Of a stretch of DNA of 64,000 nucleotides, positions 17,160 through 31,208 are shown one piece after another. Location: NCBI RefSeq assembly GCF_032401055.1, contig NZ_CP135529.1:3408501-3472500 (forward strand). Reading direction: 5' to 3'. The stretch comes from Tardiphaga sp. 709. Its GTDB lineage: Bacteria; Pseudomonadota; Alphaproteobacteria; Rhizobiales; Xanthobacteraceae. Under the pieces are notes generated by a model. The model did not search any database, was not told the DNA's origin, and saw only the letters and a program-made list of their open reading frames with translations. The translations under genes and the position numbers were made by a program. How positions within the stretch are numbered: the first letter of the stretch is position 1; the number at the start of each line of letters is the position of its first letter.

Positions 17160-19685
<2,526 letters not shown>

Positions 19686-19711
19686 GCCGATCGTACCCGG
19701 AGATAAGATTG

Positions 19712-19742
19712 AAAAGGCCCGCCATTCTTGGCGGGCCTTTTT
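19712..19742. terminator. Terminator of gyrB, possibly bidirectional
   Basis: AAAAGGCCCGCC and GGCGGGCCTTTTT enclose a six-base loop. It lies 26 bases past gyrB and 10 bases past the convergent binding-protein gene, with T-runs on both strands, so it may serve both. Confidence 0.92.
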
Positions 19743-19751
19743 GCGTTTATC

Positions 19752-20981
19752 CTACTTTTTTACCAGCGGGCAGCGCGACTGCTCCAACGGCTGGAAGGCC
19801 TGATCTGCGGGGATCGTGGCGAGCAGCTTGTAGTAATCCCAGGGCGCCTTGGACTCGTTCGGCTTCTTCACCTCGAACAGATACATGTCGTGGACCATAC
19901 GACCGTCTTCGCGGATCTTGCCGTTCTTGTAGAACACGTCATCGACGGGCAGTTCACGCATCTTCTTCATCACCTCTTCGGTGCTGTCGGTGCCGGCGGC
20001 CTGAACGGCCTTCAGATAATGCAGTACCGATGAATATGTGCCGGTCTGAAGCATGTTCGGCATGGCGTTCACCTTCCCGTAGAAGCGCTTCGACCACTTC
20101 CGCGTCTCGTCGTTCATGTCCCAATACGACGCTTCGGTGATCGTCAGCCCCTGGGCCTCCTTCAGCCCGAGACCGTGAACGTCGTTGATAAATCCGGCCA
20201 GTGCCGAGAGCTTCTGGCCGCCTGCCGTCAAGCCGAACTCTGCCGCCTGCTTGATCGAATTGATGGTGTCCCCGCCGGCATTGGCGAGCGCCACCACCTT
20301 GGCCTTGGACGACTGTGCCTGCAGCAGGACGGAGGCGAAATCCGCGGTCCCGACCGGGTGTTTCGTCGCACCGGCGACCTTGCCGCCCGATGCCTTGACG
20401 ACATCGCCGGTGTCCTTCTCGAGGCCTTGACCGAACGCATAGTCCGCCGTCACGAAATACCAGGTATCGAAACCCTGGCTGACAAGCGCTTTACCGGTGC
20501 TGTTCGCGATCGCGAATGTGTCGTAGGCCCAATGAACCACATAGGGTCCACACACCTCATTCGTGATCCGGGTCGACCCCGGCGAGCTCAGCGTGATGAT
20601 CTTCTTCTTCTCCTTGGCGATCTCGAGCACAGCCAAGGCAGGCGACGACGACGCAACGTCGAGAATGGCATCAACCTTGTCGGTATCGAACCATTTGCGT
20701 GCAGCGTTGGCAGCAATATCGGGCTTGTTCTGGTGATCTGCGAATACGACTTCGATCGGCATGCCGAGGACCTTGCCGCCGAAATCCTCCACCGCCATCT
20801 GCGCCGCAGTTACGGCACCCTTGCCGGTAATGTCGGCATAGACGCCCGACATATCCTCGATCACGCCGACACGGACGACGCCATCCGAGACCTGTGCGTT
20901 CTGCGCCGAAGCAGAGGCGGTGCAAAGAAAAACGCTGGCAATCACCGTCGTAAAGCACGCACCCAGTTCAGATCGTTTCAT
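19752..20981 (-). CDS. ABC transporter substrate-binding protein, branched-chain amino acid type
   Basis: 409 residues from the ATG at 20981, which has GGGG eight bases upstream; a GTG at 20990 is possible. A Sec signal peptide ends near ASA-QNAQVSDG. The Peripla_BP_6 fold is seen in VRVGVIEDMSGVYADITGKGAVTAAQMAVEDFGG and IEVVFADHQNKPDIAANAARKWFD. The usual permease and ATPase genes (liv) are absent, so it is an orphan or uses a distant exporter/importer set. It is the last gene of a minus-strand group with an enoyl-CoA hydratase (76 bp upstream) and a CoA-transferase, suggesting its ligand feeds that acyl-CoA pathway; this is inference. Confidence 0.88.
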   Translation of the reverse strand: MKRSELGACFTTVIASVFLCTASASAQNAQVSDGVVRVGVIEDMSGVYADITGKGAVTAAQMAVEDFGGKVLGMPIEVVFADHQNKPDIAANAARKWFDTDKVDAILDVASSSPALAVLEIAKEKKKIITLSSPGSTRITNEVCGPYVVHWAYDTFAIANSTGKALVSQGFDTWYFVTADYAFGQGLEKDTGDVVKASGGKVAGATKHPVGTADFASVLLQAQSSKAKVVALANAGGDTINSIKQAAEFGLTAGGQKLSALAGFINDVHGLGLKEAQGLTITEASYWDMNDETRKWSKRFYGKVNAMPNMLQTGTYSSVLHYLKAVQAAGTDSTEEVMKKMRELPVDDVFYKNGKIREDGRMVHDMYLFEVKKPNESKAPWDYYKLLATIPADQAFQPLEQSRCPLVKK

Positions 20982-21057
20982 ATCATCCACCCCTTTTACG
21001 TTTTTGATTTTTCAATACGCCTGCGACGCGCGATCTCTCCAGGGACCTATCGCATCG

Positions 21058-21816
21058 TCACTTCTCGTTTCCTCTGTTCGCAAACGCAGCCAGACCACGC
21101 TTGGCATCCGCACTTGTGAAGGTGCGCTGACCGAGCGCGGCCTCCACGCGAAATGCTTCTGCGAGCGGCAGATCCTGAAGCGTCAGCGCCGCTTCCTTGA
21201 TGGTCTGGATGGCGATCGGACTCAGTGCCGCAATCCTGGCTGCCATCTCATAGGCCAGCAGTTCGACTTGATCGGAATCGACAACCCGGTTGACGACGCC
21301 TTTGGCAAGCATGTCATCCGCGGAAAAGCGCTCCGCCGTCAGCATGATCTCCATGGCATGCGCGTAGCCGATCTGCCGGACCAGGCGCACGAGCGTGCCT
21401 CCCGCCGGTACGAAACCGTGCTTCGGTTCGGGCAGTTGAAAGACAGCGTCGCGCGCCGCGATCCGGATGTCCGTCGCCAGCATGATCTCGAACCCGCCGC
21501 CCATGCACATGCCGCGAATGGCGCTGATGACCGGCTTATAGAATCCGCGAAACTTGATATGGGCCGGATCCCAGGCCGAGATGTCGATCGTGTCCGCGGC
21601 GAGTGCAGGAATAGACTCCCGGAGGTCAGCACCGACGCAGAAGGCGCGATCGCCCGCACCGGTCAGCACCACGGCCCGGATCTCATCGTCATCCTTGATG
21701 GCGTGGAATGCCCGGCCGAGGTCATCATACATGGCGAGCGTCAGCGCATTCATCTTGTCCGGCCGGTTGATCCGGACCGTTGCGACGTGACTGTCCTTGG
21801 TGAAATCAATCGCCAT
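21058..21816 (-). CDS. Enoyl-CoA hydratase/isomerase family protein
   Basis: 252 residues of the crotonase fold. The oxyanion-hole segments GDRAFCVGADLRE (near 64-76) and ISAIRGMCMGGGFEIMLATDIRIA (near 100-120) are present. The first catalytic Glu position of crotonase falls in the PEPKHGFVPAGGT stretch, where the sequence is not the typical hydratase one, so isomerase, lyase or hydrolase activity is equally possible. The start MAIDFTKD at 21816 overlaps the stop of the upstream CoA-transferase as TGATG, which implies translational coupling. Longer open sequence upstream is the other frame of the CoA-transferase gene. Confidence 0.9.
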   Translation of the reverse strand: MAIDFTKDSHVATVRINRPDKMNALTLAMYDDLGRAFHAIKDDDEIRAVVLTGAGDRAFCVGADLRESIPALAADTIDISAWDPAHIKFRGFYKPVISAIRGMCMGGGFEIMLATDIRIAARDAVFQLPEPKHGFVPAGGTLVRLVRQIGYAHAMEIMLTAERFSADDMLAKGVVNRVVDSDQVELLAYEMAARIAALSPIAIQTIKEAALTLQDLPLAEAFRVEAALGQRTFTSADAKRGLAAFANRGNEK

Positions 21817-23054
21817 CAGATCGCTCCCGACGCCTTGAGACGCGCCAGTTCGGTCGCCGTGACATCCGCCAACCGGGAGAGAACCTCTGCATTGTCCTCG
21901 CCAGGCAGCGGCGCTTTTTCGAACGACATCTGCCCCGCACCGGATAGCTTGATCGGCAGACCGAACATGCCGATCAGCTTTCCGGCGATCGGAACGTCGA
22001 CGATCATGTTGCGTGCGGCGATATGCGGATCTTCGACGACCTCGGCGATGGTCTTGATGGCGCTGAGCGGGATCTTGTCGCCCGCCATCTCCTCGAGTTC
22101 GGCCTTGGTGTAGTTCGCGAACCAGCGTTCCAGCAGCGGCTTGACCCTGGTCTCTGCCACCGCGTGATCGAACCGCTTCTCCATCGTATCGATGGCCGGA
22201 TCTTTGGCCTGTTCCGGCTCGCCGAACAGCGCGCAGGTAATCGCCCAGAACTTGTCGGTGTAACCGCCGAAGAAAACGTAGCCGTCCTTGCAGGGAAACT
22301 GGCCATAGGGCCGAACGAACGGATGATCGTTGCCCAGTGGCGAAGCTATCTCTTTCTGCGCGGTGTAACGGACCACGGCGTTCTCGGTCAGTGTCAGCAC
22401 GGAGTCTTGCTGAGACACATCGACCACCTGACCGACGCCGGTCTTCTCTGCTTCTCGCAATGCTGCGAGCGTTCCGATAGCCGCATAGAGGGAAGCGGCG
22501 AGGTCGCCGATGATCGTGCCGACGCGAACGGGCGGCATGTCGGCATAGCCATTCATCGACCACAGCCCGCCGGCCGCCTGCCCCGTATTGTCATAGGCCG
22601 GCTTGGATGAATTTGGACCTGTGCGGCCGAAGCCACTGATCGCGGTGTAGACGAGCCTGGGATTGATCTCGCGCAGCACCTCGTAGCTGAGGCCAAGCTT
22701 GTCCATTGTGCCAGGGCGGAAGTTCTCGACGAGGATGTCGGCCTTCTGCACCAGTTTCTTCAGCAGGGCCTTGCCATCATCGGATTTGAGATTGAGCGTG
22801 ATGCCCCTCTTGTTGCGGTTGAACTGTGTGAAGAAGGCGCTGAGTTGCTCATCGTCGTTGCCGACGAAGGGTGGAAAGGTCCGCGCATAATCCGGCTCTC
22901 CGGGATGCTCCACCTTGATCACGGTGGCACCCAGGTCTGCGAACAACATCGAGCAGAATGGACCTGCGACAACACGTGTGATGTCAAGCACCGTCACGCC
23001 CTTGAGAGGACCGCTGCGCTCCTTGAGCCCATCTATCTTTTCTGCTGTGTTCAC
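21816..23054 (-). CDS. CaiB/BaiF (class III) CoA-transferase
   Basis: 412 residues. Moves CoA between acyl-CoA and free acid. The N-terminus GPLKGVTVLDITRVVAGPFCSMLFADLGATVIKVEHPG and the middle YTAISGFGRTGP and PPVRVGTIIGD are classic. I chose the GTG at 23054 because GGAGG (complement of 23060-23064) lies five bases upstream; an ATG at 23099 has no such site and adds unaligned residues. It is coupled to the hydratase by a one-base overlap. The substrate is unknown; relatives act on succinate, glutarate, hydroxymethylglutarate, itaconate and others. Confidence 0.92.
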   Translation of the reverse strand: MNTAEKIDGLKERSGPLKGVTVLDITRVVAGPFCSMLFADLGATVIKVEHPGEPDYARTFPPFVGNDDEQLSAFFTQFNRNKRGITLNLKSDDGKALLKKLVQKADILVENFRPGTMDKLGLSYEVLREINPRLVYTAISGFGRTGPNSSKPAYDNTGQAAGGLWSMNGYADMPPVRVGTIIGDLAASLYAAIGTLAALREAEKTGVGQVVDVSQQDSVLTLTENAVVRYTAQKEIASPLGNDHPFVRPYGQFPCKDGYVFFGGYTDKFWAITCALFGEPEQAKDPAIDTMEKRFDHAVAETRVKPLLERWFANYTKAELEEMAGDKIPLSAIKTIAEVVEDPHIAARNMIVDVPIAGKLIGMFGLPIKLSGAGQMSFEKAPLPGEDNAEVLSRLADVTATELARLKASGAI

Positions 23055-23124
23055 ATCATCCTCCCAGTCCATACGAATGTCCGCCGACAACATCGGCACG
23101 CATGATTTTCGTACAAGAGCATGA

Positions 23125-23220
23125 GTATCGAAGATACATTTTCATACCCGGCGGCCGTGCAGGCCGTGACGCCTGCACGAAGTTGCGTTGCACAAAGTGG
23201 CGTTAAAACGCCTCCACTTT
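23125..23220. promoter_or_regulatory. Hairpin-rich spacer between HMG-CoA reductase and CoA-transferase genes
   Basis: Three inverted repeats lie in this 166-bp gap. GTATC-GAA-GATAC is at 23125-23137. CGTGCAGG (23156-23163) pairs perfectly with CCTGCACG (23172-23179). An imperfect hairpin with arms AAAGTGG..CGTT and AACG..CCACTTT spans 23194-23220 just past the reductase stop. The last may attenuate or stabilise reductase messenger, the first two may be operators for the CoA-transferase gene. Function is inferred from position only. Confidence 0.45.
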
Positions 23221-24531
<1,311 letters not shown>

Positions 24532-24726
24532 TGCGGCGCCTCCCATACAGGGTCTTCTGTTGGCGGCACGTTAGGCATCCGCGGATGCCGTCCGAAAGAG
24601 ACAGTTCTGAAATATTGTCCTAGACTGTACCCATGGCGATTTGACCTCTCTATTCGCCGATGCAGCATCCTTCCGCGCAAATGGAGCGCAGACCAGGTTC
24701 ATCTGCGCGAAGACATGAGACTGGAC

Positions 24727-24740
24727 GATTGAATTCAATC
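24727..24740. promoter_or_regulatory. Candidate operator upstream of the MocR-type gene
   Basis: GATTGAATTCAATC is a perfect 14-base palindrome in the divergent promoter between the HMG-CoA reductase and the MocR gene. A second inverted repeat, ACGGT-8-ACCGT, lies at 24762-24779, and ACAGT/ACTGT pairs flank 24600-24640. A palindrome of this length is expected a few times by chance in 64 kb, so position is the main argument. Confidence 0.35.
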
Positions 24741-24804
24741 TTGTCGCTCTTGGAGAAAGGTACGGTTCCGATGGACCGTCCAGCACTGCACCTGGAGGCA
24801 TTGC

Positions 24805-26199
24805 TTGACCACTTCTCGTGAGCCGTCCGATCGCAGCACAACGCTGGCCGAGACTTTGGCCAGCCGGTTGCGTGTACGAATCCTCTCCGGCGCATTGCCG
24901 GAAGGCAACCGCCTGCCCTCGATCAGAAAGGCCGCGGGGGAATTTGGCGTGTCGAAGAACACCGTGGTCGAAGCCTATGACCGACTGGTGCTTGGCAATC
25001 TCGTCGCGGCAAAGGCAGGCTCCGGTTTCGTGGTCATCTACCGCGGCGATGATGGCGGGCGACCGAAACACGTGAGCGAAGCCGTCGACATCGCATCGCT
25101 GCTGAGCGCCCAGCTCTCGCAGAATTTCGAGATCCGCGTCGGCGACGGACGGCCGCCGGCTTCGTGGACGGAGCAATCGGAGATCAAGCGCCATCTGAGC
25201 GGGACCGGACGGATCCTGCCGGTCGCCGCTGACGCCTATGGCTCCGCACTCGGATTCCTGCCGCTCCGACAACAGATTGCATTGCGGCTGCAAGCCCAGC
25301 AAATCGCGGTGAAGGAAGACGGGCTTCTGCTCACATTCGGAGCCAATCACGCGCTCGACTTGATCATCCGCGCGATGCTGTCGCCTGGCGATACGGTGCT
25401 GGTGGACGAGCCCGGCTATTATCCTCTGTTCGCAAAGCTCACGCTGGCGCAGGTTCGCATCGTCGGCGTTCGCCGCCTGGCGGATGGGCCGGATGTCGAC
25501 GACCTCGCCGCAAAGATCCAGTCGGAGCGGCCGAAGCTGTTTTTCACGCAGTCGCTTGGCCACAACCCGACCGGAGGATCGATCACGCTGCCCGTGGCGC
25601 ATGCGGTGCTTCAGACGGCGATGCGATCGAACCTCGTGATCGTCGAGGACGACCCGTTTGCCGATCTGCCTATCGCGGTGAACAGCCGGCTGGCGACGCT
25701 CGATCAGTTGAACAATGTGATCTCGATCGGGACCTTTTCGAAGACACTGTCGGCGAGCCTGCGATCGGGCTTCATTGCGGCCCGCAGCGACCGCATCGCG
25801 ACGCTGGCCGAACTGAAGATGCTCACCACCGTCAACAGTTCCGGCCATGTGGAGCGGCTGCTGCACCGGCTGCTCGCGGACGGCCACTATGAGCGGCACC
25901 TGAAGCGGCTGGGACAGCGGAGTGAAGCCGCCATGGGTCAGGTGCGCGCCAATCTCGTGCGCGGCGGACATCATCTCTATGCCGACGCACGCACGGGCTA
26001 TTACCTGTATCTGCTGCTGCCGGACGGAATCGACGACATGGCGCTGGCGCGCGAAGGCGCGAAGGACAGCATCTTCATCGCGCCGGGAAGCCTGTTCTGC
26101 CTCGACAAGAACAGCCCGCTGGCGCGGGCGATCAGGATCAATGTGTCGCGGGCGGATAATCCGAAATTCTACGAATTTCTGCTGCGCCGGCTGCAATAG
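24805..26199 (+). CDS. MocR-type regulator (GntR HTH plus aminotransferase domain)
   Basis: 464 residues. The N-terminal GntR winged helix (about 10-75) shows LRVRILSGALPEGNRLPSIRKAAGEFGVSKNTVVEAYDRL; the rest is a fold-type-I PLP aminotransferase domain, with TFSKTLSASLRSGF carrying the PLP lysine and SLGHNPTGGS the substrate-side loop. MocR proteins use PLP to sense amino compounds and control adjacent genes. The start is a TTG at 24805, supported by GGAGG (24794-24798) six bases away. Its divergence from the reductase-CoA-transferase-hydratase group suggests that it controls that group. Confidence 0.92.
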   Translation: MTTSREPSDRSTTLAETLASRLRVRILSGALPEGNRLPSIRKAAGEFGVSKNTVVEAYDRLVLGNLVAAKAGSGFVVIYRGDDGGRPKHVSEAVDIASLLSAQLSQNFEIRVGDGRPPASWTEQSEIKRHLSGTGRILPVAADAYGSALGFLPLRQQIALRLQAQQIAVKEDGLLLTFGANHALDLIIRAMLSPGDTVLVDEPGYYPLFAKLTLAQVRIVGVRRLADGPDVDDLAAKIQSERPKLFFTQSLGHNPTGGSITLPVAHAVLQTAMRSNLVIVEDDPFADLPIAVNSRLATLDQLNNVISIGTFSKTLSASLRSGFIAARSDRIATLAELKMLTTVNSSGHVERLLHRLLADGHYERHLKRLGQRSEAAMGQVRANLVRGGHHLYADARTGYYLYLLLPDGIDDMALAREGAKDSIFIAPGSLFCLDKNSPLARAIRINVSRADNPKFYEFLLRRLQ

Positions 26200-26213
26200 A
26201 CGCCGCGACGCCT

Positions 26214-26915
26214 TCAGGTCGCTTCCTCGGTATAGGGAGCCAGCACATCCAGCAGATCCCGGCCCCGCGCCGGGGTCGGCTCCACCAGCGCGCGGTTGGC
26301 GACCGAGTCCAGATGCGAATGCATCAGCGACATCGCCTTGTTGGCATCGCCCTCCTGCAGCGCTTCGATGATCGCGATATGCTCGCTGATGCCGCATTCC
26401 GACGAATGCGGCCGGCTGAACAGCGACAGTGTCAGACAGCAGCGATAGGCGATCTCGCTGACATAACGGACCAGCACCGGGCTGTTGGTCATCGACGCCA
26501 GCATGATGTGAAATTCAGTCGCCAGGCGAATAGACACGGCGTTCGGCCCGTCATGCGCCTCGCGCTCCGCCTCGACATGCGCCTTGAGGCGCGCGATCTG
26601 GCTGCTGCTGAGCTTGCCGGCGATCTTGCGGACGATCAGCCGTTCGAGATCCATCCGGATGTCGAAGATGTCCCGCGCATCCTGCCAACTCGGCGTCACC
26701 ACCACCGCGATGCGGTTACGTCGCAGCTCCACAAGCCCCTCGGACGCCAGTTGCCCGAGTGCATAGCGCGCAATGGTGCGGCTAACGCCGAAGCGCTCAC
26801 CCAGAGAGTCCTCGGGAAGCTTGGCGCCGGGTTCCAGAGCCTGCTCGATGATCGCCCGCCGCAGCGCGCGGCAGATCATCCCAACCTTGTCTTTTGAATT
26901 CGGCGCTTCTGGCAT
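26214..26915 (-). CDS. GntR family regulator, FCD (FadR) subfamily
   Basis: 233 residues: an N-terminal winged helix (LEPGAKLPEDSLGERFGVSRTIARYALGQLASEGLVEL) and an all-helical FCD ligand domain with the metal/ligand-type residues D and H in IFDIRMDLERLIV, ATEFHIMLA, SEHIAIIEAL and HSHLDSV. It is divergent from the ABC importer operon. Its stop is 14 bp from the convergent MocR gene. A matched pair of TGCATGCA-centred sites lies in the shared promoter, so it most likely represses itself and the importer until a ligand binds. Confidence 0.92.
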   Translation of the reverse strand: MPEAPNSKDKVGMICRALRRAIIEQALEPGAKLPEDSLGERFGVSRTIARYALGQLASEGLVELRRNRIAVVVTPSWQDARDIFDIRMDLERLIVRKIAGKLSSSQIARLKAHVEAEREAHDGPNAVSIRLATEFHIMLASMTNSPVLVRYVSEIAYRCCLTLSLFSRPHSSECGISEHIAIIEALQEGDANKAMSLMHSHLDSVANRALVEPTPARGRDLLDVLAPYTEEAT

Positions 26916-26957
26916 TCAGTCAGACCTATCGTGATCGCTGCACGTGAGCTTTGCCCG

Positions 26958-26970
26958 AAGTGCATGCAAT
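26958..26970 (+). promoter_or_regulatory. Operator half of a matched pair (site 1)
   Basis: AAGTGCATGCAAT, 43 bases upstream of the GntR/FCD start. It is the exact reverse complement of site 2 at 27060-27072. The core TGCATGCA is itself palindromic, as expected for a dimeric GntR-type binding site. Confidence 0.7.
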
Positions 26971-27059
26971 CTAAGAGAGTAGATGCCCAATAATTCCGCA
27001 TGGAATGGCGAGCGAACGTAAAATGACAACGTTTCGCCCCGGACTCAAGTGGCACCCCA

Positions 27060-27072
27060 ATTGCATGCACTT
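27060..27072 (-). promoter_or_regulatory. Operator half of a matched pair (site 2)
   Basis: ATTGCATGCACTT, seven bases before the likely ATG of the ABC ATPase gene. Centres of the two sites are 102 bp apart. Such a pair could allow looping, with site 2 blocking transcription or translation start of the importer and site 1 giving autoregulation. Confidence 0.7.
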
Positions 27073-27078
27073 ATTGCT

Positions 27079-27933
27079 ATGACAAGTATGCAAGAAAATG
27101 GGCCCGCCGAGGGCCAACGCAGACCGACCGCCGTTGAGCTGTCCGCAACCTCCGTAACGTTCGGCCGCGGCCCGACCGCCACGCCGGCGCTCGCCGAGAC
27201 CAACCTTAGCATTCCCGATGGCGAATTCCTTGCCCTTGTCGGCCCCTCCGGCTGCGGCAAGTCGACGATCCTCAAGCTCGTCAGCAATCTGCTCCGCCCC
27301 ACCACCGGCGTCGTCATCGTCGGCGGCCGCGAGGTCGCTGCCAAGGCGCTGCGGATCGGCATGGCGTTCCAGAACCCGACCATGCTGCCCTGGCTGACCA
27401 TTGAGCGGAACATCATGCTTCCGCTCAAGATCGTGGAGCCGTTCCGGTCCGAGTATCGGCAGAAGCGCAAAGGCGAATTTCGCGACAAGGCCCATGCATT
27501 GCTGGCCCAGGTCGGCCTCAAGGATTTCGGCAACAAATATCCCTGGCAGTTGTCCGGCGGCATGCTGCAGCGAGCCAATCTGTGCCGCGCGCTGATTCAT
27601 GAGCCGCGCATGCTGCTGCTGGACGAACCGTTCGGCGCACTCGACCAGTTCACCAAGGAAGAGCTCTGGTCGATCCTCCAGAGCCTCTGGCTGCAACACA
27701 AACCAACAGTGCTGCTCGTAACGCACGATCTCCGCGAGGCCGGCTTCCTCGCCAGCCGCATCTGCGTGATGAGCGCGCGCCCAGGCCGTATCCTCGACGA
27801 CAGCGCGGTGGACTTTCCGCGCCCGCGCACCATCCCGATGACCTTCGAGCCCGACTTCGTTGCGCTGAACCAGCGTCTGCGCGACCTCATCGTCAATGCG
27901 CGGAGCAATGCTCCGGCCACGCAAGAGGCATAA
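27079..27933 (+). CDS. ABC transporter ATP-binding protein, NitT/TauT family
   Basis: About 284 residues. Walker A GPSGCGKST, Q-loop MAFQNPTMLPWLTI, signature LSGGMLQRANL, Walker B LLLLDEPFGALD and the switch His in LLVTHDLREAGFL are all intact. It energises the permease that follows directly (TAA-ATG abut at 27933/27934). The start is uncertain: ATG 27079 or 27088 lie just after operator site 2, and a GTG at 27049 would place the operator inside the gene. No clear Shine-Dalgarno is visible. Confidence 0.93.
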   Translation: MTSMQENGPAEGQRRPTAVELSATSVTFGRGPTATPALAETNLSIPDGEFLALVGPSGCGKSTILKLVSNLLRPTTGVVIVGGREVAAKALRIGMAFQNPTMLPWLTIERNIMLPLKIVEPFRSEYRQKRKGEFRDKAHALLAQVGLKDFGNKYPWQLSGGMLQRANLCRALIHEPRMLLLDEPFGALDQFTKEELWSILQSLWLQHKPTVLLVTHDLREAGFLASRICVMSARPGRILDDSAVDFPRPRTIPMTFEPDFVALNQRLRDLIVNARSNAPATQEA

Positions 27934-28707
27934 ATGAATCTCGGCCTCCGTCAGAAACTCTGGTCGTTCGGACTAATCGTCGCATTCTTCGCGGGATGGC
28001 AGCTGTTCTGCATCGTCTCGGGCATGTCCGATCTGATCCTGCCACGCCCGACCGATGTTCTCGCGACACTGATCGCGCGCCTCCCGGTGTTGTGGCCGCA
28101 TATCATCCAGACCCTCAGCACCACCATGGCCGGCTTCGCGCTCGGCGTCGGCCTCGGCGTGGTGCTCGGTGCAATCATCGGCGTCTCGAAAGTCGCCTAT
28201 GACACCGCCTATCCGCTGCTGGTCGGCTTCTCGTCGATCCCGAAAGTCGCCGTCGTGCCGATCTTCGTTCTGTGGTTCGGCTCCGGCTCCGTGCCTGCGA
28301 TTCTGACTGCACTGTCGATCTGCTTCTTCCCCATCGTCGTCAACATCGCGACCGGTCTCGCCACCACCGAGCCGGAACTCGAGGACGTGCTGAAGGCCCT
28401 TGGCGCAAGCAAGATGGACATTCTGTGGAATGTCGGCCTGCCGCGCACCATGCCGTTCTTCTTCGCCTCGCTCAAAGTCGCTGTCAGCTACGCCTTCGTT
28501 GGCGCCGTTCTGGCAGAAACTGTCGCGTCCAATCGCGGCATCGGCAATGTGATGATGAGCGCATCGTCGAACTTCAACGTCCCGCTCGTCTTCGCTTGCC
28601 TGTTCATTCTCGCGATCCTTGGCGTGGCGCTCTACGTCATTTTCTCTCTGATCGAGGCGCGCGTGACCGGCTGGGCCACGCGCAAGAACGATCTCGTTGC
28701 GACCTAA
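27934..28707 (+). CDS. ABC transporter permease, NitT/TauT family
   Basis: 257 residues with about six transmembrane helices of the SsuC/TauC/NrtB type. The EAA-like cytoplasmic loop EDVLKALGASKMDILWNVGLPRTMPFFFASLKVAVSYAF contains the conserved Gly. It starts immediately after the ATPase stop and is followed 27 bp later by the binding protein gene, giving a complete importer. Confidence 0.94.
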   Translation: MNLGLRQKLWSFGLIVAFFAGWQLFCIVSGMSDLILPRPTDVLATLIARLPVLWPHIIQTLSTTMAGFALGVGLGVVLGAIIGVSKVAYDTAYPLLVGFSSIPKVAVVPIFVLWFGSGSVPAILTALSICFFPIVVNIATGLATTEPELEDVLKALGASKMDILWNVGLPRTMPFFFASLKVAVSYAFVGAVLAETVASNRGIGNVMMSASSNFNVPLVFACLFILAILGVALYVIFSLIEARVTGWATRKNDLVAT

Positions 28708-28734
28708 TCACCTCTCACCAACCAGGAGAACGTC

Positions 28735-29760
28735 ATGTTGAAGAGATTGACCGCCCTCGCCGTGGGCAGCGTCCTGCTCACAGGCTCCGCCTTCGCTCAG
28801 GAGACGACCATCAAGTTCACGCTGGGCTGGAAGACCCAGGGCGCCGACGCCGCCTTCCTCTATGCGAAGGAGAAGGGCTTCTTCAAGGAAGAGGGCCTCA
28901 ACGTGGTGATCGACCAGGGCGAAGGCTCCGGCGCGACGGTGACGCGCATTATGTCCGGCGCCTGGGATGCCGGCTTCGGCGACGTCAATGCCATTATCCA
29001 GAACGCCTCGACGCGTCCGCAGGATTCGCCGGTGATGGTGTATCAGATGTGGAACCAGCCACCCTTCGCCATCGTGACCAAGAACACCAGCGGCATCAAT
29101 AGCATCAAGGATTTCGAAGGCCGCACGCTGGGCGGCGCGCAGGGCACGCCGACGACCCGCCTGCTGCCGGTCTTCATCCAGAAGAACGGCCTCGCTGGCG
29201 ACAAGATCAAAGTATCGAACATGGCGCCCAATCTGCAGGAGCCGATGCTGATCAAGGGCGACATCGACGCCGCCCTCGTCTTCAATATCACCAGTTACTT
29301 CAACCTAGTGCTGAACCGTCAGGATCCGGAGAAGGACTTCAAGTGGTTCACCTTCGGTGACTACGGCCTCGACCTGTATTCCAACGGCGTGATGGTGTCG
29401 AAGAAGCTGCTGAAGGAGAATCCGAAGGCCGTTGCCGGCCTCGTGCGCGCCATCAACAAGGGGCATCTCGCGGTCGCCAAGGACCAAAACGAAGCCCTCA
29501 AGGCGATCGCCACCTTTGATAACCTCATCGACATCCCTGTCGAAAAGCGCCGCCTGCAATATGCCTTCGAGAAGCTGATCGTCACGCCGGAGATGAAGGA
29601 AATCGGCACCGGCGACATCAAGGACGATCGCATGGCCCGCGCCATCGGCATGGTTGTGGAGGGCTACGGCCTCAGCCGCACGCCGACCCCACAGGAAATC
29701 TTCTCCCGCGAATTCCTGCCGCCGCGCGCCGAGCGCGAGCTCATCTATACGAAGAACTGA
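28735..29760 (+). CDS. ABC transporter substrate-binding protein, NMT1/THI5-like
   Basis: 341 residues with a Sec signal peptide cut near AFA-QETTIKF and the NMT1/SsuA-like pattern: FTLGWKTQGADAAFLYAKEKGFFKEEGLNVVI, GEGSGATVTRIMSGAWDAGFGD, and LGGAQGTPTTRLLPVF. Related proteins bind pyrimidine precursors, riboflavin, sulfonates or similar ring compounds. The AGGAGAA Shine-Dalgarno at about 28723-28730 supports the ATG at 28735. It precedes the amidohydrolase gene by eight bases, suggesting that the imported compound is that enzyme's substrate. Confidence 0.93.
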   Translation: MLKRLTALAVGSVLLTGSAFAQETTIKFTLGWKTQGADAAFLYAKEKGFFKEEGLNVVIDQGEGSGATVTRIMSGAWDAGFGDVNAIIQNASTRPQDSPVMVYQMWNQPPFAIVTKNTSGINSIKDFEGRTLGGAQGTPTTRLLPVFIQKNGLAGDKIKVSNMAPNLQEPMLIKGDIDAALVFNITSYFNLVLNRQDPEKDFKWFTFGDYGLDLYSNGVMVSKKLLKENPKAVAGLVRAINKGHLAVAKDQNEALKAIATFDNLIDIPVEKRRLQYAFEKLIVTPEMKEIGTGDIKDDRMARAIGMVVEGYGLSRTPTPQEIFSREFLPPRAERELIYTKN

Positions 29761-29768
29761 TTACGTCC

Positions 29769-31208
29769 ATGACTGAGGTTCTGTCTGCGGCTCATATCTT
29801 CACCGGCATAGATCGGGGTCTCGTGCCTCAGGCCAGCATCCATCATGCGGATGGCCTGATCACGAGTATCTCAACCGGTGCAAGCATTTCGCCGCAGACG
29901 AACCACCTGATCATTCCCGCACTGGTCAATGCCCACGACCACGCACGACCGTCCATGACGTCCTTCGGCGCGTCAAATATGCCGCTGGAATCATGGATCG
30001 CACGGTCAGCCTTCGGCACACCGCCCGATCCCTATCTCGCCGCCGCCGTATCGCTCGCCCGTTCGGCGCGAGCAGGCTGCGGCGGAGCGATGATTCATTA
30101 CACCCGCCCGAGCGGCAAAATGCCGATCCTCGACGAGTCGATCGCGATCGCAAAAGCCGCCAGCGATGTTGGCATCCGGCTAGCCTTCGCGCTGGCCGTG
30201 CGCGACCAGAATCCAATCGTCTATGGCGACGGCACAGACGTGCTTGCCGCACTGCCCGAGAACGATCGCAGCACCATCCAGGAACTGTTCGTCCGCCCGA
30301 GCCCGACACCATCAGAATATCTCGACCGCGTCGAAGCCATTCAGGCCGCCATTGCCGGGCCGATGATCGATGTGCAATTCGGCCCGGCCGGCGTCCAGTG
30401 GTGCTCGCCTGCCTTGCTCGAAGCGATTGCCGAACGCTCTGCCACCACGGGCCGGCGCGTCCATATGCATCTGCTCGAGACCATCTATCAACGGCAATGG
30501 GCGGACCGGGCATTTCCCGGCGGCGTGGTGCGCTTTCTCAAGGAGATCGGCCTGCTGTCGAACCGACTGACGCTGGCGCATTGCATTCATGCCCGTCCGG
30601 ACGAACTCGACATGATCGCCGAGTCCGGCACGACCATCGTGACGAACTTCAGCTCCAATCTCCATTTGCATTCCGGTCTTGCGCCGATTGCTGATGCCCA
30701 TCGCCGCGGCTGCCCGATTGCTGTGGGCATCGACGGCGTTGCCCTCGACGAGGACGACGATGCGATCCGCGAGATGCGCCTCGTGCAGATGGCGCATGAC
30801 GGCCTCGGCTTCGACCGCACTTGGAGCCGGGCGGAGTTTCTCGCGCTCGCCATCCGCAACGGCCGCAAGTCGATCGGCGCACCAGGCCCTGGCACACTCG
30901 CGGCCGGAGAAGTCGCGGATTTCGTGACGCTCGACATCGGCCAGCTCGACCGCGATGCCATCATGCCGGGCGATCCGATCGACATGCTGTTTGCCCGCGG
31001 CAATTCGAGTTGCGTCCGCGATGTCGTCGTGAATGGCCGCATCATCAGCCGCGATGGCAAGCCAACCGGCGTCGATCTGGAGGCTATGGAGACCGAGTTG
31101 CGCGGGCTCTATCGCAAGAGCGTGCCGCAGTTCAAGGCTTTCGAACGTGCCTGGGCGCCGTTCGAAAGCGCCGTATCGCACTGGTTCCGGCAACAGGGGT
31201 GTTGCTAG
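29769..31208 (+). CDS. Amidohydrolase family protein (cytosine deaminase/TrzN-like)
   Basis: 479 residues, metal-dependent TIM-barrel hydrolase, cytoplasmic (no signal peptide). Metal ligands are visible: HDH in PALVNAHDHARPS (near 56-58), His in RRVHMHLLET, His in TLAHCIHA, and Asp in VGIDGVALDEDDD. The C-terminal ADFVTLDIGQLD/VVVNGRIISRDG strands form the usual beta domain. This subtype deaminates or dechlorinates heterocycles such as cytosine, guanine or s-triazines, so substrate is open. It is the last gene of the importer operon and the likely first catabolic step. Confidence 0.9.
   Translation: MTEVLSAAHIFTGIDRGLVPQASIHHADGLITSISTGASISPQTNHLIIPALVNAHDHARPSMTSFGASNMPLESWIARSAFGTPPDPYLAAAVSLARSARAGCGGAMIHYTRPSGKMPILDESIAIAKAASDVGIRLAFALAVRDQNPIVYGDGTDVLAALPENDRSTIQELFVRPSPTPSEYLDRVEAIQAAIAGPMIDVQFGPAGVQWCSPALLEAIAERSATTGRRVHMHLLETIYQRQWADRAFPGGVVRFLKEIGLLSNRLTLAHCIHARPDELDMIAESGTTIVTNFSSNLHLHSGLAPIADAHRRGCPIAVGIDGVALDEDDDAIREMRLVQMAHDGLGFDRTWSRAEFLALAIRNGRKSIGAPGPGTLAAGEVADFVTLDIGQLDRDAIMPGDPIDMLFARGNSSCVRDVVVNGRIISRDGKPTGVDLEAMETELRGLYRKSVPQFKAFERAWAPFESAVSHWFRQQGCC

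Follow-up and report, generated by a model that had tools for sequence, protein, structure and literature searches.

A degradative HMG-CoA reductase island with a CoA-transferase/hydratase extension in Tardiphaga sp. 709, a possible entry module for mevalonate catabolism

The window analysed here, a stretch of 64,000 nucleotides from Tardiphaga sp. 709 (NZ_CP135529.1), contains an island of five genes built around a degradative class II reductase of 3-hydroxy-3-methylglutaryl-CoA (HMG-CoA), hereafter HMGR. The reductase is accompanied by a family III CoA-transferase, a crotonase-fold CoA hydratase (ECH), an orphan binding protein (ABP) and a divergent MocR-type regulator (Table 1). The stop codon of the transferase gene (21818-21816) overlaps the ATG of ECH (21816-21814) in the motif TGATG, and the true start of the transferase may lie some 45 bases inside the annotated open reading frame (ORF). 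An earlier note on this DNA had placed the five genes and the TGATG overlap correctly, as the coordinates, strands and domains are confirmed by Pfam and NCBIfam. At present the annotation of the transferase and hydratase goes no further than 'CoA transferase' and 'enoyl-CoA hydratase/isomerase family protein', respectively. The island may represent a mevalonate-catabolism cassette in which this pair forms an added entry step.

Table 1 Genes of the island and the insertable unit that holds them (window coordinates).
Feature	Position	Strand	Evidence
ABP, orphan periplasmic LIV-type binding protein (Peripla_BP_6)	19752..20990	-	Pfam PF13458, E 3.9e-112
ECH, crotonase-fold CoA hydratase	21058..21816	-	PF00378, E 3.6e-61
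CaiB-type family III CoA-transferase (CoA_transf_3)	21816..23099	-	Pfam PF02515, E 4.1e-122
Degradative class II HMG-CoA reductase (HMGR)	23221..24546	-	TIGR00532, 440.6 bits (cut-off 259.95)
MocR-type regulator (GntR + aminotransferase domains), divergent from HMGR	24805..26199	+	Pfam
Insertable mevalonate cassette, ~6.5 kb, beside gyrB	19688..26220	.	blastn, two HMGR-less congeners against the window

The limits of the island are defined by two congeners lacking HMGR, which were aligned with the window by blastn. The gyrB gene ends at window position 19685. In the first congener (G001), gyrB, at window 19687, runs straight into window 31247, while in the second (G005) some 3.5 kb of other DNA comes after it before the match resumes at window 26221 with an FCD regulator, an NMT1-type ATP-binding cassette (ABC) transporter and an amidohydrolase. 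These junctions indicate that the mevalonate genes (19688-26220) form one unit and the FCD/ABC/amidohydrolase block a separate one. The same region is present in Tardiphaga robiniae LMG 26467, where the five proteins are 98-99% identical. Among 18 genomes of the genus, 5 carry HMGR, the window's own genome of 6.36 Mb included. Moreover, all five genes are found in the same order in two loci from outside the window's family, L111 (79-84% protein identity) and L110 (52-85%). This repeated gene order, together with the coincidence of the coordinates in the earlier note with the insertable unit, shows that the island is not a chance assembly. In two other congeners (L089 and L090), HMGR is of a different lineage (56-57%) and is accompanied by a MocR of its own and, immediately downstream, by an ABP relative of 51-52%; no transferase/hydratase match is present within the 15-20 kb examined there. 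The neighbouring cassette at window 26214-31208, composed of an FCD-GntR regulator, an NMT1-type ABC transporter and a deaminase-type amidohydrolase, is found in G005 without the mevalonate genes and is not present at the corresponding site of G001.

The island HMGR is the sole copy in the genome, and its score lies above the cut-off of the degradative class (Table 1). In the catabolic direction, a degradative HMGR converts mevalonate, CoA and two NAD to HMG-CoA, and mevalonate degradation in Pseudomonas mevalonii uses the HMGR mvaA and the HMG-CoA lyase mvaB. As the earlier note stated, the island has no lyase, and taken alone it is an incomplete mevalonate-catabolism operon. The lyase is encoded in trans, at G000:C1:424428-425246 (NF004283, 394 bits, cut-off 246), adjoining two genes read as methylcrotonyl-CoA carboxylase subunits. 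It is one of two PF00682 proteins in the genome, the other being read as 2-isopropylmalate-synthase-like. An ORF near this lyase, guessed to be the genome's own LiuC, was rejected as sirtuin-like. In two further genomes with lyase-less clusters the lyase is likewise encoded elsewhere (2/2, or 3/3 with the window's genome). The presence of a lyase in this genome, and close to 9 of 17 clusters bearing the pair, argues against the route bypassing it that the earlier note had proposed. Compared with P. mevalonii, the island shares the degradative class II HMGR and HMG-CoA lyase together with regulator and uptake genes, but adds the CoA-transferase and hydratase, has its lyase outside, and carries an orphan LIV-type ABP instead of a full transporter.

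For a broader view of HMGR neighbourhoods, the best 80 of 591 confirmed matches in the genome collection were taken as loci. The first 41 (L001-L041, all proteobacterial) contain a divergent MocR in 34 cases, a lyase match within the DNA examined in 21 (one partial) and the transferase in five. The other 39, mostly from Chloroflexi, archaea and Firmicutes and including some short contigs, contain the transferase in two, both proteobacterial (L051 and L060). A haloarchaeal degradative HMGR (L115, NZ_CP144462.1, 9001-11621) overlaps an AtuA-family gene, and AtuA is also annotated under a Salinigranum HMGR match; five annotated regions from bacteria, inspected for comparison, showed no HMGR-AtuA association.

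The linkage between the pair and HMGR was assessed through searches anchored on the transferase and blind to HMGR, with thresholds of E<=1e-125 for the order, E<=1e-110 for the phylum and class and E<=1e-100 for plasmids. The genome searches score the best few candidates per genome (for the transferase, 4 of up to 36) in samples from larger groups. Among 397 genomes of the order, 7 hold a relative of the transferase; the corresponding counts are 5 of 398 for the phylum and 3 of 385 for the class, overlapping sets that comprise 10 distinct genomes. Relatives were also found in 2 of 72,556 plasmid records, one of them from Rhodococcus. HMGR is located within 10 kb of the transferase in all 12 of these genomes and records; apart from Rhodococcus and a single genome of another class, they belong to the Alphaproteobacteria. 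Of the 397 order genomes, 38 carry HMGR, and the complete overlap (7/7) has a hypergeometric P of 4e-8 with genomes treated as independent; three of the seven belong to one genus and two to the window's own. At the genus level the overlap is 4/4 among 19 of 141 genera (P 2e-4, genera treated as independent). In addition, a search anchored on ECH found 4 of 398 genomes, every one already in the transferase-anchored set. The neighbourhood is kept in related and unrelated bacteria, a point on which the earlier note had suggested a check.

For comparison, 17 clusters were assembled, comprising the window, L020, L027, L038, L041, L051, L060 and L104-L113; L001 (T. robiniae) was omitted as a near-copy of the window, and L020, L027, L038, L041, L051 and L060 were found through HMGR. 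All 17 clusters contain both a hydratase and HMGR, and 11 have an ABP of at least 72% identity. An HMG-CoA lyase is nearby in nine, a count that depends on the examined DNA of about 16 to 29 kb per cluster. The ORFs of the loci were called by a simple script that missed genes, such as ECH in L041, L112 and L113, and blastp of all ORFs recovered them.

Phylogenetic trees indicate that the presence of the transferase is partly inherited with HMGR and partly not. The HMGR tree, made by a quick method, has 82 rows, 17 of them with the transferase and several of them long; five near-duplicate rows and L001 were removed. Presence of the transferase requires 7 changes on this tree, at least 5 by the starred branches, against 15.7 in shuffles. 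The transferase tree pairs L108 with L041 (99/98) and L110 with L111 (100/99), whereas their HMGRs fall in separate clades, indicating that the module has joined different HMGRs and does not reflect simple common descent of one island. The HMGRs that accompany the pair are of different lineages, and the regulators are of two types.

The transferase belongs to the family III superfamily by its CoA_transf_3 domain and an invariant aspartate. This residue, D173 in the first row of the alignment, is conserved in 16/16 transferases and aligns with the aspartate of solved family III enzymes that we take to be catalytic. The best NCBIfam models are the CoA-transferases for succinyl-CoA:mesaconate (315 bits, cut-off 700), glutarate (273 bits, cut-off 750) and oxalate (272 bits, cut-off 522), and the protein falls below each of these cut-offs. 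In PDB profile alignments, the nearest solved relatives are YfdE, formyl-CoA transferases, an unnamed CaiB/BaiF protein and SUGCT. On plasmids, identity drops from 82 and 63% to 42.6% or less among the matches listed (best 40 of 59). Two gene contexts of relatives at 38-43% were viewed. The relative at 41% is accompanied by MaoC genes and a CoA ester lyase gene in what resembles an itaconate/mesaconate cluster, and the other context is an unannotated record.

ECH carries the features of a crotonase-type hydratase. Its glutamates E109 and E129 (first-row numbering), presumably the hydratase-site glutamates by their role in enoyl-CoA hydratase, are invariant in 14/14 aligned orthologues. The best NCBIfam model is EchA19 (236 bits, cut-off 400; among the best 25 of 73 matches). 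The best solved relative is 3rsi, a substrate-unassigned hydratase (202 bits), followed by 3-hydroxypropionyl-CoA dehydratase and EchA19. Neither LiuC nor SidH is the closest solved relative: the chains 5jbw and 5jbx, which we take to be the leucine-type methylglutaconyl-CoA hydratase LiuC, score 156 bits at ranks 30 and 31, and SidH (7oeq) scores 145 bits at rank 40. On plasmids, identity drops from 76 and 56% to 44.7% or less among the matches listed (best 30 of 63), and the one 45% relative viewed, in Rhodococcus ruber, has a gene context without ligand clue or HMGR link. As every listed NCBIfam model lies below its cut-off, the transferase and ECH fit no known-substrate family, and the grouping with enzymes of unrelated substrates that the earlier note had considered is not seen.

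The pair has a counterpart in CaiB-CaiD, likewise a family III CoA-transferase with a crotonase hydratase, in which one CoA can cycle between the unsaturated and the beta-hydroxy acid. CaiB cycles CoA in carnitine metabolism, with the product CoA ester serving as recycling donor. The island pair differs in its linkage to HMGR and in scoring below both carnitine-model cut-offs, with 146.4 bits against 413 for the carnitine CoA-transferase and 139.8 bits against 500 for the crotonobetainyl-CoA hydratase, and is a member of neither.

In L020, L027 and L109, the crotonase is replaced in its position by two small MaoC-like proteins. The first of these in L020 matches FAS1_DH_region in Pfam (E 3e-17), the second has no Pfam match at 0.01, and in NCBIfam neither goes beyond weak matches to dehydratases. 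For the L020 pair, itaconyl-CoA hydratase is the best solved relative, matched weakly by the N half (E 0.004) and over 45 residues by the C half (E 8e-9), and the proteins of L027 and L109 were assigned through 59-75% identity to those of L020. Itaconyl-CoA hydratase also yields a tertiary beta-methyl alcohol. The occurrence of two unrelated hydratase folds in one slot suggests that a CoA ester is hydrated or dehydrated in the step next to the CoA-transferase. The itaconate/mesaconate route (CoA-transferase, MaoC hydratase and citramalyl-CoA lyase) shows the same three-step logic for a methyl-branched unsaturated acid; the mesaconate transferase model scores best here, and MaoC-like proteins occur in these three clusters. 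However, the lyase here is an HMG-CoA lyase and not of the CoA ester lyase type, HMGR is always present, and the window's hydratase is a crotonase.

The regulator had been read in the earlier note as a hint that the inducer contains an amino group. Of the 41 loci L001-L041, 34 have a MocR divergent from HMGR, and 30 of these 34 lack the transferase, so that MocR is general to degradative HMGR loci and gives no specific hint of an amino inducer for this island; as proof of an amino substrate it was rejected on the same ground. The lysine for pyridoxal 5'-phosphate (PLP), K313 in the window, is conserved in 43/43 readable regulators, with one of 44 not covered, and from this residue an amine ligand appears possible for the whole regulator family. 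It is odd that a PLP-binding regulator should serve a substrate with no amino group, and our search of the open-access literature found no paper on the partnership of MocR with degradative HMGR. Within the 17 clusters, a divergent MocR is present in nine (window included) and a GAF-type protein in seven, with neither in L038. The GAF-type regulator of L051 contains Pfam GAF and PucR-type HTH_30 domains, and its Rhodococcus counterpart is 30% identical.

Uptake genes near HMGR vary, including TctA-like genes with a small partner and TRAP, LIV or sugar-type ABC systems. Relatives of the ABP at 72-82% identity are present in 10 of the 16 other transferase-bearing clusters. L041 has two Peripla_BP-type binding proteins beside LIV-type genes, whereas the island has the binding protein alone. 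The one 60% relative of the ABP viewed, in Rhizobium, has a gene context that gave no ligand and no HMGR link. SMP-30/strictosidine-synthase-like (lactonase-type) genes are located near HMGR in L002, L004 and L105 (by Pfam) and L114 (by annotation), and in L015 and L035 by clustering with L004; in L105 the gene is fused to an ABC permease. Such genes would suit lactone substrates and are candidate mevalonolactonases.

We favour, with a probability of roughly 0.43, a cassette for mevalonate catabolism to which an entry module has been added, leading from anhydromevalonate through mevalonate to HMG-CoA; which acid is the substrate, which way the pathway runs and how the transferase cycles are what we infer. 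In this scheme, the ABP would deliver a mevalonate-like acid, and the family III CoA-transferase would load CoA onto anhydromevalonate (5-hydroxy-3-methylpent-2-enoate), with succinyl-CoA as the first donor. The crotonase would add water to anhydromevalonyl-CoA to give mevalonyl-CoA, which would then act as recycling CoA donor to the next anhydromevalonate in a CaiB/CaiD-like cycle, so that the transferase would free mevalonate. HMGR would oxidise mevalonate to HMG-CoA, and the HMG-CoA lyase, near the cluster or, as here, elsewhere, would cleave it to acetoacetate and acetyl-CoA. On chemical grounds the hydratase could act on anhydromevalonyl-CoA, giving mevalonyl-CoA, or on 3-methylglutaconyl-CoA, giving HMG-CoA. 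HMGR is obligatory only in the former case, whereas the latter requires the lyase and can do without HMGR, and we prefer the former because HMGR is present in 12/12 transferase-anchored cases and 17/17 clusters while the lyase is nearby in 9/17. A lyase alongside is also more economically explained by a pair that feeds into mevalonate or HMG-CoA. The flow from HMG-CoA to free HMG or a dehydration product, envisaged in the earlier note, is for this reason not borne out, and free HMG as end product was rejected given the lyase in many clusters. A biosynthetic direction towards anhydromevalonyl-CoA was also rejected, since lyase and uptake genes argue for catabolism.

Several observations weigh against this interpretation. 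The six clusters detected through HMGR, out of 17, give no independent proof of the link, the 12 transferase-anchored cases hold close relatives (two of the window's genus and three of another), and the search threshold may favour an HMGR-linked subfamily. On the HMGR tree the transferase label is strongly clustered, with 0/500 shuffles as low; inheritance with HMGR explains much of its presence, and this tree is blind to gain versus loss. ECH is no nearer to fungal SidH than to dozens of other hydratases. The transferase scores nearest to dicarboxylate transferases, which could mean a dicarboxylate acceptor, although a dicarboxylate donor, succinyl-CoA, would explain the resemblance equally. 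Finally, the Rhodococcus operon adds hydantoinase/oxoprolinase genes, which are outside the proposed scheme. In this operon (L113, NZ_CP070614.1, 10990-15239), the A and B parts are directly before the CoA-transferase, and the B part is nearest to the caprolactamase beta model (238 bits, cut-off 1000); as an opener of a lactam or lactone, the enzyme would fit a cyclic precursor.

The main rival proposes that the pair acts on free HMG or on 3-methylglutaconate, which supplies the acyl group in ferrichrome A, and yields 3-methylglutaconyl-CoA and HMG-CoA, entering the mevalonate route at HMG-CoA, much as itaconate is handled by a transferase, a hydratase and a lyase. It agrees with the dicarboxylate CoA-transferases as nearest NCBIfam models, with SUGCT (succinate--hydroxymethylglutarate CoA-transferase) among the nearest solved chains, with the context of the 41% transferase relative and with the resemblance of the MaoC-like stand-in to itaconyl-CoA hydratase. 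We nevertheless consider it unlikely: HMGR would be superfluous, yet all 12 transferase-anchored cases have it; the lyase, without which this route could not run, is near 9 of the 17 clusters only, though elsewhere in the 3/3 genomes checked; and ECH does not group with 5jbw/5jbx. An improbable alternative is that the pair epimerises or activates mevalonate, taking (S)-mevalonate to mevalonyl-CoA and, by dehydration and rehydration, to the (R) form for HMGR. It involves the same genes and the same dependence on HMGR as the anhydromevalonate scheme, and CaiB/CaiD logic is reversible, the carnitine CoA enzymes having formerly been called racemases. However, the MaoC replacement would need equal two-way activity, and we know of no natural source of (S)-mevalonate.

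A further reading, which is highly improbable, would have the crotonase act as a CoA-dependent ammonia lyase on a beta-amino acid of the 3-amino-3-methyl type, with an amine as MocR inducer. The conserved PLP lysine of MocR would suit this function, and there is a precedent in Pseudomonas SBV1, which degrades beta-valine via a CoA ligase and a CoA-dependent ammonia lyase (PMC4619459, available part). Yet the SBV1 cluster, as listed in that part of the paper, has crotonase-type BvaB1/BvaB2, an HMG-CoA lyase and the CoA ligase, with no family III transferase and no HMGR. Moreover, in 30 of the 34 loci where MocR accompanies HMGR the pair is missing, and a replacement resembling itaconyl-CoA hydratase would favour water over ammonia. 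Ordinary hitchhiking of unrelated genes near a mevalonate operon, to which the variable presence of the island in the genus might point, is hardly credible, as the co-occurrence spans classes and Rhodococcus, with different HMGRs and regulators.

In nature, anhydromevalonate could come from dehydromevalonic acid lactone and from fungal siderophores that bear an anhydromevalonyl group. The siderophores triacetylfusarinine C and coprogen carry anhydromevalonyl groups, made by fungi from mevalonate via SidI and SidH (PMC3709128, available part), and the lactone has been isolated from a fungus (PMC5742835, available part). The proposed intermediates, mevalonyl-CoA and anhydromevalonyl-CoA, are the same as those of the SidI/SidH route in the available part of PMC3709128, and the hydratase is also of crotonase fold; in contrast, the fungal route employs an ATP-dependent ligase and leads towards anhydromevalonyl-CoA, and ECH is distant from SidH. 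At rather less than even odds, the island may belong to a bacterial route that consumes dehydromevalonic acid lactone and the anhydromevalonyl group of hydroxamate siderophores from fungi, in which the SidI/SidH reactions would be reversed through a CoA-recycling transferase and a hydratase, the product burnt through HMGR and the hydratase step solved by two unrelated folds; it would be the first such pathway.

The earlier note had suspected an undescribed system, and the degradative HMGR island with its CoA-transferase/hydratase extension is possibly that: among the matches listed, text searches of the open-access literature found no description of a transferase/hydratase module beside HMGR and no paper on bacterial anhydromevalonate or methylglutaconate catabolism, nor a structure paper on SidH or SUGCT of use here, and the available parts of two recent HMGR/mevalonolactone papers (PMC13064465 and PMC13370337) do not mention the module. 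If the proposed scheme is true, mevalonate catabolism would gain a new entry step, bacterial carbon use would be linked to fungal siderophore chemistry, and two vaguely annotated protein families would be given substrates. In addition, the partnership between MocR and degradative HMGR is widespread (34/41 loci).

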